DNA of 59,436 nucleotides from Gammaproteobacteria bacterium UBA2955. GTDB taxonomy: Bacteria > Pseudomonadota > Gammaproteobacteria > Pseudomonadales > Azotimanducaceae. Positions 12,645 to 17,242 of the stretch are shown one piece after another. A program made the position numbers and the translations under genes. Below the pieces are notes generated by a model that saw only the letters and a program-made list of their open reading frames with translations, had not been told where the DNA came from and searched no databases. The stretch is from contig DEBN01000015.1 of the NCBI GenBank assembly GCA_002348825.1, forward strand, positions 1 through 59,436, read 5' to 3'. Each line of letters opens with the position of its first letter. Position 1 is the stretch's first letter.

Positions 12645-13271
12645 ATGACCAGAAAAATGAAACTGTACGATTTTCCCGGTGCACCGAATCCGCGGCGTGT
12701 GCGAGTCGTCGCTGCTGAGAAAAACATTGAACTGGACTATGTGACCGTGGATATGGGTAAGCGCGAGCATAAAACGCAGGAATTCATCCAAAAAAACCCC
12801 AGCGGTAAGATTCCGGTACTGGAGCTGGAAGACGGCACCTGCATTGGCGAATCCATCGCGATCTGTCGCTATCTCGAAGCGCTTTATCCTAGGCCGAATT
12901 TGTTTGGTGAAGATGCTCTGGAAACGGCACAGATCGAAATGGCTCATCGCCAGATCGAATTGGAATTGATGTCGCAGATTGGCACATCGTGGGTAAACGG
13001 CCCCGTCGTTGCCAAGATGGGGCTGGTTGAACCGATTGAGGCGGCGAAACAGCGCAGCGATGATCTTACCCGCGCCTATTACCGACGTATGAACATGGAG
13101 TTAGGGCGGCGTGATTATCTTGCGGGTGCTCGTTATACCATGGTGGACATCACGGCGGCGATAGCCGTTGACTTTGCCTCTGCCTTGGTTGGTTTGAAGC
13201 CCGATTCCGAGCTTGGAAATCTGTGGGCATGGCACGAGCGAGTAACGTCTAGGGCGGAGTTCGTCGCTTAG
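12645..13271 (+). CDS. Glutathione S-transferase family protein
   Basis: A 208-residue cytosolic GST. The N-terminal thioredoxin fold begins with KLYDFPGAPNPRRVRV; the glutathione-binding segment is KNPSGKIPVLELEDGTCIGESIAI, where the cis-Pro and the E-S pair contact glutathione. The C-terminal helical domain contains the N-capping pattern ARYTMVDITAA. The usual catalytic Ser or Cys at the first helix is replaced by Asn/Pro (APNPRR), common in bacterial GSTs that bind rather than catalyse classic conjugation. Two starts are possible, ATG 12645 and ATG 12657; neither has a strong ribosome-binding site, and the second matches the family start. The substrate is unknown. Confidence 0.8.
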   Translation: MTRKMKLYDFPGAPNPRRVRVVAAEKNIELDYVTVDMGKREHKTQEFIQKNPSGKIPVLELEDGTCIGESIAICRYLEALYPRPNLFGEDALETAQIEMAHRQIELELMSQIGTSWVNGPVVAKMGLVEPIEAAKQRSDDLTRAYYRRMNMELGRRDYLAGARYTMVDITAAIAVDFASALVGLKPDSELGNLWAWHERVTSRAEFVA

Positions 13272-13315
13272 TGCGTTGGGCGTGTGCCGCACCGGGTTGA
13301 TTTTTTCGGCAGCGG

Positions 13316-13519
13316 TTAGAAAACCATGTAGATCAGCAGTTGCAGGGCGATAAGCACGGTGGCCCACCAGCGAATATCCTGCCACTTCTGCGGTGACTCA
13401 ATATCTGCAGTGATCCTCTCCAAGGGGATCAACCAGACCAGCACGCCCAAACTGAAAAACAGCAACATTGAGACGTAGTTCCCCCACTCCGCGGGCAAGC
13501 TTTGAAGCCATGCAATCAC
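13316..13519 (-). CDS. Small two-helix membrane protein coupled to the sodium:solute symporter
   Basis: A 67-residue protein starting with GTG at 13519, inside the last codons of the symporter gene (GTGA overlap), with GCAGGAGC at ideal spacing upstream. It has two hydrophobic segments, SMLLFFSLGVLVWLIPL and the C-terminal WWATVLIALQLLIYMVF, separated by a charged loop (ERITADIESPQKWQD). The overlap implies translation coupled to the symporter, so a stoichiometric partner or stability factor is a reasonable inference. A longer frame extends upstream to 13627 through the symporter gene but has no supporting start signal. I do not recognise a named family; it differs in position from the known DUF4212 small subunits, which precede their symporters. 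Confidence 0.7.
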   Translation of the reverse strand: MIAWLQSLPAEWGNYVSMLLFFSLGVLVWLIPLERITADIESPQKWQDIRWWATVLIALQLLIYMVF

Positions 13520-14979
13520 AATGTGCTCCTGCGGGTAAACGGCCGGTAAGTCACAGTCGCCAACTGTTCTGTGGTTAGCCCTGGGGTAATAAAGCTCAGC
13601 GTCCACAGTGCCGTCATGGAATAGCAAAAGCTCAAGAACGCGATGTAATAAAAATTAATGTCGGTAAATTGCAAGACTGCAGCTAATGCGACACCGCTGA
13701 TTAACGTCCACAGGCCCGCCTTGGGCGTGGCCCGCTGTGATAAGGCACCCATCAACAGCAACGCGAGCATGGGTCCCTGGAACAGCGACAAGCCGGTTTG
13801 GATGAACACGAAGATGCCGCCGAGGTCGTTAATAAATGGTGCGATAGCCATGGCGGATACGAGTAACACTAATGAGATCCAGCGGCCTACCACCAGATCG
13901 CGGTCGGGGTCGTGTTTTTTGACCAAAACGTGGCGAATGTCTCGGGTCACCATCAATGAGGTAGCGTTGATGCTTGAATCCAATGAAGACTGCAGCGCCG
14001 CGATAACCGCGACAAACATCAGTCCGGATAGTCCCGGCGGCAACACGTTTTTGATGATCCATGGCAACGCTTTGTCGGTCGCATCAATGGGCGCGTTCAA
14101 CACCAGCGCGAGCAAGCCTGGAAAAATAATGAGTAAAGGTACAAAGGTTTTGGCGAAGGCGGCGAACATCATTGAGGCGCTGGCATCCCATTGGCTCTTA
14201 GCGCCGAGAGTGCGCTGCAGGATGGCTTGGCTGGCGATCCAGTAGGCGGGCGAGAGCACGATTCCAAGGCCCAGAATAACGCCGGGCCATGGCGACTGCG
14301 GATGATCGGCGGGTAAGTACACGGACAGGTGGTTCGGGTTGTCCTGGGTCAGCGCGGTGGCGAAATCAGTAAATCCACCCAATTCAGAGATGCCCAAGCC
14401 GACGATGATCAGGCCGCAGACAAACATAATGCTGACCTGTAGCGCGTCGGTGAACGCAACCGCCGCGAGTCCGCCACTGACAGAGTACAGCCCGACAACG
14501 GCACCCGATATAAGGATGCTCAGCCAGATCGGCCAACCAAGGTAGGTTTCCAGGACCAAAGCCAATGCCCACATGCCAACGCCCATGGCAAAGACCGCGA
14601 ATAAGCTAGTGATCAGGGCGGTCACCACACGCACAGATTGGTTGTAGCGCAAACCCAGATATTCGGGGATGGAATACACGCCGGCGCGCCAATACAAAGG
14701 AATAAAAATCAGCGACGCTATGATCATTGCCGGTATCGCGCCGATCCATTCGAAATTGGCTTGGGCAATACCGATGTTATAGGCATTGCCCGACGCACCT
14801 ACGTAGCTGTTGGTGTCGATATTAGAGCCAATGATAGAGAGGCCGATAACCCACCATGTCAGTGAGCGCCCGGCAAGGAAAAAGTCGCGCGCGCTCTTGA
14901 CTCGCCTTGCGACCCTGAGGCCTACAAATACGGTCAATACGACGTAGCCGAGGATGACTACGATGTCTAATGCGTGCAA
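13516..14979 (-). CDS. Sodium:solute symporter family (SSS) transporter
   Basis: A 487-residue inner-membrane protein with about 13 hydrophobic segments. SSS hallmarks: the early SARDFFLAGRSLTWWVIGLS, a sodium-site region IIGSNIDTNSYVGASGNAY, the VYSIPEYLGLRYN loop, and GLYSVSGGLAAVAFTDALQ in the fifth/sixth helices. It should import an organic solute with Na+; the subgroup resembles SGLT-type carriers for sugars or related compounds, but substrate choice is inference. Translation probably starts at TTG 14979, since AGGAGG sits six bases upstream and no ATG is placed better. The gene lies 74 bases after a 41-residue membrane-protein gene and overlaps the next small gene by four bases, suggesting one operon of membrane proteins. 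Confidence 0.88.
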   Translation of the reverse strand: MHALDIVVILGYVVLTVFVGLRVARRVKSARDFFLAGRSLTWWVIGLSIIGSNIDTNSYVGASGNAYNIGIAQANFEWIGAIPAMIIASLIFIPLYWRAGVYSIPEYLGLRYNQSVRVVTALITSLFAVFAMGVGMWALALVLETYLGWPIWLSILISGAVVGLYSVSGGLAAVAFTDALQVSIMFVCGLIIVGLGISELGGFTDFATALTQDNPNHLSVYLPADHPQSPWPGVILGLGIVLSPAYWIASQAILQRTLGAKSQWDASASMMFAAFAKTFVPLLIIFPGLLALVLNAPIDATDKALPWIIKNVLPPGLSGLMFVAVIAALQSSLDSSINATSLMVTRDIRHVLVKKHDPDRDLVVGRWISLVLLVSAMAIAPFINDLGGIFVFIQTGLSLFQGPMLALLLMGALSQRATPKAGLWTLISGVALAAVLQFTDINFYYIAFLSFCYSMTALWTLSFITPGLTTEQLATVTYRPFTRRSTL

Positions 14980-15053
14980 TACGCCCCTCCTGCAAATTCA
15001 GGGCACAGTATACCTACTTGTTATATTGCGCGTCGGAGGACCAATCAGGGCGG

Positions 15054-15179
15054 CTAGCCATAAGCCATTTCTAAAGTTTCAATGACCCAGCCCACTTGTA
15101 TGGACCAGAACCAAGTCAGACTGATGATGGTAGCTATGGCGAACCCGAGAGCTGCTTTTTCGAGGTTGTTTTTATTCAT
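15054..15179 (-). CDS. 41-residue single-helix membrane protein
   Basis: A small frame beginning ATG AAT AAA AAC at 15179 and ending TAG at 15054. The product starts with a polar, positively charged segment (MNKNNLEK), then one hydrophobic helix rich in aromatic residues (LGFAIATIISLTWFWSIQVG), then a short tail. AAGGG lies about ten bases before the ATG. It sits 16 bases after the four-helix protein gene and 74 bases before the symporter gene, all on the same strand, so it is most likely part of that operon. It resembles the small subunits that join multi-helix membrane complexes, but no family is recognised. Coding status rests on context, start signal and composition only. Confidence 0.55.
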   Translation of the reverse strand: MNKNNLEKAALGFAIATIISLTWFWSIQVGWVIETLEMAYG

Positions 15180-15195
15180 ATACCCATGCCCTTTT

Positions 15196-15672
15196 TTAGG
15201 AGAATCCGATCCAGCGACCCGAAGCGGCAACGGTGAACCAGATTAGGATAGACGTAATGGCGAGCATACGCAGCGTCGTCGGTTTAATGGTGGCGTGATC
15301 GAATTTGAGCAGCGGTCGTCGAATAGCGTAAACAAACACTACGCCAGCGGCCAAGCTCGCCATCTTGGCCCAGAACATGGTGTTGTAATAAAGCTTCAAT
15401 GCCACAGCAGAGCTCATAAAGATTCCACTGATCACAATTATCACGAGCGCGACATTAAACCACTTGTGGGTATTTTCGATTACCACCTCGGATGGAATGT
15501 CCCTCATTACAATATTTAGCAAGCGCAAATCCCCGACTAGAACCATGCCGCCGAGCATGGAAATGCCCAATAGATGGAACATTTGCACCACAGCGAAGAC
15601 GCCGCCGTAGGCCTTGGAAATATCGGCAAGCAGAGAGGTGTCTAACCAGTCAAAAAAGGGGTAAAGATCCAT
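15196..15672 (-). CDS. Four-helix membrane protein, paralogue of the upstream gene (DUF6644-like)
   Basis: A 158-residue inner-membrane protein with four predicted helices. Helix 1 ends in the motif FHLLGISMLGGMVLVGDLRLLN. Helix 2 starts after THKWFNVAL, helix 3 follows MFWAKMASLA, and helix 4 ends in ASGRWIGFS. The same order of motifs (His, GM, V-x-DLR-x-L, a final G-R) is in the neighbouring gene at 15699-16274, so the two arose by duplication. The ATG at 15672 is preceded by AAGGAACAG; the frame is open further upstream but only as a shadow of the neighbour. Conserved intramembrane His residues recall b-type cytochrome or CopD-like proteins, but haem or metal binding is only a hypothesis. 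The likely family is DUF6644, of unknown function. Confidence 0.7.
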   Translation of the reverse strand: MDLYPFFDWLDTSLLADISKAYGGVFAVVQMFHLLGISMLGGMVLVGDLRLLNIVMRDIPSEVVIENTHKWFNVALVIIVISGIFMSSAVALKLYYNTMFWAKMASLAAGVVFVYAIRRPLLKFDHATIKPTTLRMLAITSILIWFTVAASGRWIGFS

Positions 15673-15698
15673 GATCTGTTCCTTGTGCTTCGGCTGCG

Positions 15699-16274
15699 CT
15701 AGGGCAGAGCCGCCATTTCGTCGACACAACCAGCGGCCCAGTACATGAAATAGGGCAATTGTTTGTGGCAATCGAACCAATCGTAAGCAATCGTGCGGCC
15801 GGTAATGACGACCCCTGCCCATAAGGCTAAGGACAGTGCTGCGCCAATGCGAATGCGTTTGGGCGGCACTGGGTCCAGGTCCCAGGAGTCGCTGGATGCT
15901 TGCATTTTGGCGCGAAAAAGAAACGCATTAATGCCCGCTGCAATCAGCAAAACCACCTTGATGCGGAACCACAGACTCTGGGTAGTGCGCACTGGAATGG
16001 CGTAATACAGTAAGAATCCGGTGATCAGCATGACGACAAAGCCGATCATCATAGGCTTATCCAAACGTTGGGCGATGGTGGAGGCCGGCACGTTGGGAAA
16101 TATTGCACCCAGCATGCGCAGATCGATCACAAAAAGCATGCCCAAGAAAACCATGAGCGTGAGCACATGCGTGGTCTCGATCCACGAATAGAGATATATG
16201 GACTCGTGGATACTGGTGCTCCAGCTTTGGCTGTCGAGCCAGCGCGCCAACTTCAACAACAGTTCATTGAGCAT
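15699..16274 (-). CDS. Four-helix membrane protein (DUF6644-like), first gene of the cluster
   Basis: A 191-residue inner-membrane protein with four helices. The conserved block is IETTHVLTLMVFLGMLFVIDLRML; later segments are DKPMMIGFVVMLITGF, LWFRIKVVLL and GVVITGRTIAY. A second His lies in the N-terminal SIHESIYLY. It carries a polar cytoplasmic insert (SSDSWDLDPVPPKRIR) and a C-terminal extension with two Cys and one His (DCHK, AGCVDE) that its 158-residue paralogue downstream lacks. The ATG at 16274 follows AGAGGAATTC. It is separated from the paralogue by 26 bases, which suggests that they are co-translated and form a heteromeric complex. No known enzyme activity; DUF6644 is the likely family. 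Confidence 0.7.
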   Translation of the reverse strand: MLNELLLKLARWLDSQSWSTSIHESIYLYSWIETTHVLTLMVFLGMLFVIDLRMLGAIFPNVPASTIAQRLDKPMMIGFVVMLITGFLLYYAIPVRTTQSLWFRIKVVLLIAAGINAFLFRAKMQASSDSWDLDPVPPKRIRIGAALSLALWAGVVITGRTIAYDWFDCHKQLPYFMYWAAGCVDEMAALP

Positions 16275-16339
16275 GAATTCCTCTAGGCCCTAACCGAGCG
16301 AAATATCATACAAACTTGCTTTGGCCCCAGCCACTCCGG

Positions 16340-17242
16340 CTATTGCGTATTTTCCACAATATTGCGCAGCATGGACTCCTGAGCGCAAGTCATCAGCAGC
16401 TGGCCATCTTGGGTATAAATTTGGCCTTCGTTCATGCCGCGTCCGGCGGTGGCGGCAGTGCTGCGTTGATCGAAAATCATCCACTCGAAAGGATCTGCGT
16501 CTCGATGGAACCAAGCGCTTTGATCCAGGCTGGTGAGGCGATGGCTCTGGAACGGAATGCCGTGCGGGAGCACCGAGTTGAACATCAGCGGTCCATCGGA
16601 AAGATAGGCCATGAGGATTTGGCGCTCACGTAGAGTTAGTGTCTTATCAGACGGTGCCACCCGCATCCACAAGCGCAAGGCGGGCGGTTGCTTGCGATCG
16701 AATTCAAAAAATGATGGAGAAGCCCACTCCATCTGCACGCGTCCTGCTTGCACGACGGGGAAGGGGAACGGCGGCTCGCCCTTTGCTTCGCGAGCTGCAA
16801 TAACGGCTTGCGGGGACTCGAGAATCGGCGCTTTGGGTTGGTGTTCGTCGCCGGTTTCAGCGGTTTTGAACGACGCGATCATATGAAAAACTTTATGTTG
16901 GCCCTGCATGGCGGTGATGGCGCGGGTGTCGCCGTGGCGACCTTCGCGCAATCTAATGACTTCGTAGCGTAACGGCAGTGTTGGATCGCCCGCGCGCAAA
17001 AAGTAACCGTGGTAGGAGTGGGCCATTTTATGTTCGTCAACCGTGGCGAGGCCAGCGGCGAGTGCCTGACCAAGGAAGTGGCCGCCGTAGATCCCAACAG
17101 GGCCATAGGTTTCGGTTTTGGCCGTAAATACATCGGGTTCGTCCGTTGCGCTGACCCGCATCAGTTCGATTAGTGGTAGCCCGGCGTGGCTGCTCTCGGC
17201 TTGTTGCATGCCCGCGGCAGGCGTTGCGGAGGTCGTACTCAT
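16340..17242 (-). CDS. tesB: Acyl-CoA thioesterase II
   Basis: A 300-residue double hot-dog thioesterase that hydrolyses acyl-CoA to free acid and CoA. The N-terminal hot dog contains GGHFLGQALAAG and HSYHGYFLRAGDP; the C-terminal hot dog contains LTSLDQSAWFHR with the catalytic Asp, the Thr of STAATAGRG, and the Gln of TCAQESMLRN, matching the Asp-Thr-Gln set known from E. coli TesB. The length is close to E. coli TesB (286). It follows the SDR gene with two bases between the SDR stop and its ATG, so the two form an operon. This points to turnover of an acyl-CoA intermediate produced by neighbouring lipid or side-chain catabolism. Confidence 0.87.
   Translation of the reverse strand: MSTTSATPAAGMQQAESSHAGLPLIELMRVSATDEPDVFTAKTETYGPVGIYGGHFLGQALAAGLATVDEHKMAHSYHGYFLRAGDPTLPLRYEVIRLREGRHGDTRAITAMQGQHKVFHMIASFKTAETGDEHQPKAPILESPQAVIAAREAKGEPPFPFPVVQAGRVQMEWASPSFFEFDRKQPPALRLWMRVAPSDKTLTLRERQILMAYLSDGPLMFNSVLPHGIPFQSHRLTSLDQSAWFHRDADPFEWMIFDQRSTAATAGRGMNEGQIYTQDGQLLMTCAQESMLRNIVENTQ

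Follow-up and report, generated by a model that had tools for sequence, protein, structure and literature searches.

Among described proteins, those that the locus analysed here distantly resembles include membrane-embedded haem proteins. Reference 23 of PMC11662147 names HemJ in its title as a b-type haem protein. According to passages of PMC8324918 and PMC8951039, the cytochrome bd subunit CydA is made up of two bundles of four helices and one further helix and has a His on haem d, and the small single-helix CydX/CydS subunit is crucial for cytochrome bd assembly. DUF6644 is listed by Pfam as a family of unknown function, and no paper was found for its name or accession in the open-licence literature. 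We analysed 59,436 nucleotides of contig DEBN01000015.1 (assembly GCA_002348825.1) from the marine Gammaproteobacteria bacterium UBA2955, hereafter the window, where five consecutive minus-strand genes encode two DUF6644 proteins (p1 and p2), a microprotein (p3), a symporter of the SSS (SSF) family (p4) and a small partner of the symporter (p5). The strongest of our new claims places DUF6644 proteins in a HemJ-like superfamily and has them acting in A/B pairs, accompanied at this locus by a microprotein. The five genes, earlier suggested to specify a single complex, are two separable modules, p1-p2-p3 and p4-p5.

The DUF6644 pair and its microprotein

A search for p2 in a genome-contig collection holding one genome per species (84,980 species) yielded 42 loci, with p1 directly upstream of p2 in every one and p3 directly downstream in 40, the two remaining contigs stopping inside p2. 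The three genes are thus one inherited unit, Module A, and this part of the earlier complex claim stood while the part that included the symporter did not. Within the genus p3 was found in 13/13 congeners whose p2-type gene is uncut; L219 and L220, with p2 identities of 33% and 28%, lacked it, and L218 was cut. It was also present in all four loci of family f44. Eight other DUF6644 loci were scanned for p3, seven of which are counted because L085 was searched after its first gene only, and none of the seven carried p3 within the 400 bases searched in each. The stretch searched in one of these loci (L057) holds an unrelated hydrophobic open reading frame (ORF) of 64 aa. A p3 profile retrieved 106 protein clusters without a Pfam domain in any of them, and p3 itself, like p5, gave no Pfam or NCBIfam match at E up to 1; p3 represents an unnamed microprotein family. 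Both small ORFs were found again in other genomes and look like real genes, because differences from the closest five loci pile up at third codon positions (15–25 at position 3 against 2–3 at position 2 for p3, and 27–31 against 4–7 for p5). In one genome two p1-p2-p3 triplets stand in tandem (L047:3626-6686), a duplication of the whole cassette.

The paralogy proposed for p1 and p2 in the original prediction was borne out, as both pass the DUF6644 cut-off of 27 bits (PF20349; Table 1), cross-match each other by tblastn in related loci at approximately 20–29% identity, and align as ortholog profiles in hhalign with E = 4.5e-17. They are the DUF6644 matches of their own genome, with no others found. 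An alignment of 171 DUF6644 units, reduced from 245, showed His 33, Gly 83, Lys 103, Gly 152 and Arg 153 (p2 numbering) in 171/171 units and Arg 50, the Arg of DLR, in 168/171. The motif set first noted in the two proteins is therefore a core of the family with respect to its invariant His, its DLR Arg and its final G-R, to which the Lys of the third transmembrane (TM) helix can be added; the Met of its GM element is not general. Ortholog alignments, one of which took in 40 of the 42 loci for p1, gave H36, R53, G86, K106 and G159-R160 as invariant in p1 and H33, R50, G83, K103 and G152 in p2, with R153 nearly so. The p1 tail beyond the last helix has invariant residues of its own (Y164, D165, W166, D168, C169, G182 and C183).

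AlphaFold2 (AF2) models, each of a single chain, had mean pLDDT values of 88.0 for p1 and 93.6 for p2. Foldseek returned no significant match for either model, and the p1 fold neighbours, none of them significant, include designed haem bundles and cytochrome b561/b6f; a p2 profile gave no match to sequences of solved structures at E up to 1. Charge counts showed Lys and Arg densest in the helix 3–4 loop (5.7 in p1 and 4.0 in p2) and acidic residues at the N termini of both proteins; p3 has its Lys and Arg N-terminally and its acidic residues C-terminally. This pattern suggests that p1 and p2 are N-out/C-out and p3 is N-in/C-out; loop 2 of p1, with 3.0 Lys/Arg, is a poorer fit. Under such a topology the His, the TM3 Lys, the final Arg, the Cys-bearing tail and the AYG end of p3 would face the periplasm.

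Pairing of DUF6644 genes extends beyond the triplet. DUF6644 matches, the window's own genome included, occurred in 15/145 genomes of the order and 29/398 of the phylum, and in many proteobacteria the genes form tandem pairs. At one locus (L066) such a pair is open as a single frame, and a protein search with this frame returned at least 84 relatives, a lower bound because only the 7999 best candidates were scored. Among the matches listed, all 74 relatives of 300 residues or more hold two DUF6644 units (73 scoring as two stretches and one as three), with the His invariant in both halves (74/74 and 74/74). In a tree of the 171 units p1 grouped with the C halves of the fusions and p2 with their N halves, with a support of 0.82 or 0.95, one value for each side of the midpoint root. 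Tandem loci vary in arrangement, as L080 and L081 have a B-type first gene and an A-type second one and L061 has both copies on the A side. The simplest reading of these sequences would be that A and B arose in a single ancient duplication and have stayed together as a heterodimer, fused in some cases in the order B-A and here separate in the order A-B. From the linkage, the two-unit fusions and the grouping in the tree, p1 and p2 probably form an obligate heterodimer. It was also observed that at two loci (L082:1339-2232 and the minus strand of L084, 1309-2229) a Cys-tailed A-type protein has a B-type partner that is enlarged to approximately 297–306 aa with extra hydrophobic segments.

Profile comparison with HemJ, DUF2214 and cytochrome bd

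Comparison of the DUF6644 profile with a diverse set of 49 HemJ sequences gave an E of 2e-5 and a score of 38.2 in hhalign, against 13.1 and 11.1 for reversed controls. An earlier comparison with a small HemJ set was weak, and the signal became clear only with the more diverse one. With match columns only, HemJ scored 38.7, and the highest value from 100 block-shuffled profiles was 20.4. The alignment runs over three helices and places the His, Arg, Gly and Lys of DUF6644 on HemJ residues conserved in 49/49 sequences. At the level of single proteins the PF03653 cut-off of 34.2 bits was not reached, p1 scoring 18.3 bits and p2 giving no match at E up to 1, and the C-terminal R..NE.P of HemJ (48–49 of 49 sequences) is absent among the conserved DUF6644 columns. 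DUF2214, represented by 7 sequences, scored 28.3 on match columns against 22.7 for the best of 100 shuffles. Control alignments of SSF, ABC (3 sequences) and Bax1-I (2 sequences) proteins fell within their own shuffles.

The signal for CydA was lower, with a score of 29.8 against reversed controls of 20.7 and 21.6, and on match columns 28.9 against 23.7 for the best of 100 shuffles. It lay in the N-terminal part (26.4, best of 100 shuffles 20.6; E 0.0014), a weak match limited to two helices in which the haem-d His of CydA aligned with the DUF6644 His across helices 1–2; the rest of CydA scored 23.4 against 24.4 in shuffles. Neither p1 nor p2 matched PF01654, the CydA family, at E up to 1. CydB gave no signal, in a test that is poor because its alignment includes at least one sequence that appears to be in the wrong frame.

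Separation of the symporter module

The five ORFs and the gaps of 26, 16, 74 and -4 bases between them were confirmed on the sequence (Table 1), and it was their order, spacing and duplication that had suggested a complex of all five products tying the His pair to sodium-driven uptake. Such a complex is favoured by the tight spacing in the window and by the recurrence of the gene order in L010–L014 and L017 and in genomes G523, G525, G534, G536 and G539. Among the 42 p2 loci, however, the symporter is directly behind p3 in only 6, farther downstream in 5 and truncated at the edge of the stretch in 2; the remaining 29 had no p4 match within the stretch examined, several contigs ending soon past the triplet. 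In a genus sample of 20 genomes (the window's own, G039 and G522–G539, several of them incomplete assemblies) the five-gene order was found in 6; symporter and DUF6644 genes lie 3.7–7 kb apart on the same contig in 4 and on different contigs in 7, two of which (G531 and G535) have divergent DUF6644 genes without p3. A symporter without a DUF6644 match was seen in G532 (91% complete) and G533 (68%), and DUF6644 without a symporter match in G530 (92%). Taken together, 14/20 genomes of this partly incomplete sample showed no symporter behind the triplet, and order-wide its orthologues at E below 1e-100 were confined to 2/145 genomes, both in the window's genus, against the 15/145 with DUF6644. 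Separation of the genes in relatives is what the original prediction had named as its own refutation, and gene order within the genus led us to reject the five-part complex, which we regard as scarcely credible.

Module B, which stands apart from the first, consists of the symporter and p5, as p5 is the next gene in 19/19 loci that contain the 3' end of the symporter, a count that omits L252 (a contig-edge fragment with the 5' end) and the divergent symporters L253–L257. The assignment of p4 to the SSS family held, with a score of 207 bits to PF00474 covering profile positions 1–406 of 406. Its nearest solved relatives are the bacterial sodium/glucose cotransporter (2xq2 and 3dh4, which we take to be a Vibrio protein) and then SGLT1/2, and the alignment with the cotransporter has core residues in common, namely the Glu of ASYEW/ANFEW, a Tyr-Trp pair, a Lys and a Gln, presumably the sugar-binding residues of vSGLT. 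A role of p4 in sodium-coupled sugar uptake is suggested by this similarity. Three congeneric symporter orthologues (L242 in G524, L244 in G533 and L250 in G532) contain one in-frame TGA each and are decayed genes or sequence errors; two of these genomes, G533 and G532, are those without a DUF6644 match.

The 74-base gap ahead of p4 is mostly variable, and a TATACT before the ribosome-binding site is kept in 6/7 aligned loci (TATGCT in L012). This element is only a hint of a promoter belonging to the symporter, because a consensus scan of positions 13000–16500 found no full sigma-70 match.

Table 1. Positions of the five genes and the p3/p4 gap in the window.
Feature	Coordinates	Strand	Description
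p1, DUF6644 A-type subunit, 191 aa	15699..16274	minus	four TM helices and C-terminal tail; PF20349 46.4 bits
p2, DUF6644 B-type subunit, 158 aa	15196..15672	minus	four TM helices; PF20349 209.6 bits
p3, 41-aa microprotein	15054..15179	minus	single hydrophobic stretch; mostly WFW..Q, C-terminal AYG
p3/p4 intergenic gap, 74 bases	14980..15053	minus	-10-like TATACT (~15012-15007, by eye); GGAGG upstream of symporter start
p4, SSS (SSF) symporter, SGLT-like, 487 aa, TTG start	13516..14979	minus	PF00474
p5, 67-aa symporter partner, GTG start	13316..13519	minus	two hydrophobic stretches by eye; 4-base overlap with p4 stop

Among 20 proteins scanned from neighbouring genes of the triplet, 16 fell in various families and 4 in none, with no shared theme. 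An ORF of approximately 117 aa is conserved after the triplet in 10 loci (for example L016:6780-7133), mostly ahead of dTDP-sugar-type genes, and had no Pfam match in the single copy scanned.

A possible haem-b heterodimer and its relation to known systems

We tentatively favour, at a little under an even chance, the reading in which p1-p2-p3 is a haem-b heterodimer of HemJ-like type, has a CydX-like helper and plays a redox role. It builds on the observed paralogy, linkage, natural fusions, A/B split of the tree, HemJ profile match, predicted fold and separability of the symporter; the heterodimer contact, haem, p3 role, disulphide, topology, redox function and substrate are its conjectural elements. 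The three products would form a single membrane complex, an A-B heterodimer of anciently duplicated four-helix bundles that the single-helix p3 may stabilise or cap. Each bundle would be HemJ-like, with the invariant His of the first long helix most likely binding haem b as an axial ligand close to the periplasmic side and the invariant Arg and Lys placed around the haem propionates or a substrate. H36 in p1 and H33 in p2 could share one haem, or there could be one in each bundle, and the Cys pair of the p1 tail (C169 and C183) would probably form a periplasmic disulphide above the site. By electron transfer the complex could connect the quinone pool with a donor that is either lipid-soluble or periplasmic, with the SGLT-like symporter and p5 standing apart as a second module.

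The profile match to HemJ with its co-aligned His, and the haem bundles and cytochrome b561/b6f among the p1 fold neighbours, speak against a cofactor-free membrane device for binding or transport, in which the His, Arg and Lys clusters would bind an anionic or lipid ligand and p3 would regulate. This alternative explains the Arg/Lys set that is invariant in both units and the fact that no redox partner gene stayed beside the triplet among the neighbours scanned, and we consider it unlikely but worth serious attention. The weak CydA match bears on a further possibility, a split and minimal haem enzyme linking the HemJ-type four-helix protein to the cytochrome bd scaffold (4+4+1 helices in separate genes, where CydA is one chain), in which p3 would correspond to the ninth helix or to CydX; we hold this to be improbable.

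Kinship with HemJ could also mean that the pair is a second protoporphyrinogen oxidase in place of HemJ, the more so as the window's own genome (G000) had no PF03653 match. At approximately 91% completeness that assembly may simply have missed its HemJ, and a gap of this kind is probably the cause. Among 18 congeners (G522–G539) HemJ was found in 17 and DUF6644 in 16, with two having HemJ and no DUF6644 match; as both families occur together in 15, replacement was rejected and is very improbable. In two genomes of the genus (L134 in G529 and L135 in G527) second, divergent UPF0093 (HemJ-like) paralogues were observed.

With the haem-b heterodimer, DUF6644 gains a probable biological unit, the A-B heterodimer, joined in one group by an unannotated 41-aa subunit, as well as a superfamily and a chemistry that can be tested, with haem b bound through a single invariant His in each subunit. 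If true, this would be a new haem-membrane complex in marine gammaproteobacteria and possibly a step toward the origin of the cytochrome bd bundle.

In comparison with known systems, p1 and p2 resemble DUF6644 proteins in passing the cut-off of the family and carrying its core His, Arg, Lys and G-R, but the p1-p2-p3 group differs in combining a Cys-tailed A subunit with p3, which the seven other loci lack, although three of these also have a Cys-tailed A-type protein. The likeness to HemJ/UPF0093 (PF03653) lies in the three-helix profile match and its co-aligned residues, whereas the DUF6644 subunits are paired, have no R..NE.P among their conserved columns, score under the PF03653 cut-off and stand beside HemJ in most congeners. 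DUF2214 (PF09980) is linked by a profile score above all 100 shuffles and by several fusions that bear both Pfam labels. Cytochrome bd, in CydA and CydX, has in common a bundle fold and a small single-helix accessory protein, and perhaps the His placed early in the first long helix, but differs in that the DUF6644 pair has no CydA Pfam match and aligns weakly over two helices only. For the second module, p4 aligns over residues 4–452 of 487 with the bacterial sodium/glucose cotransporter and departs from the SSS/SGLT pattern in its downstream 67-aa partner p5, unmatched in Pfam and NCBIfam.

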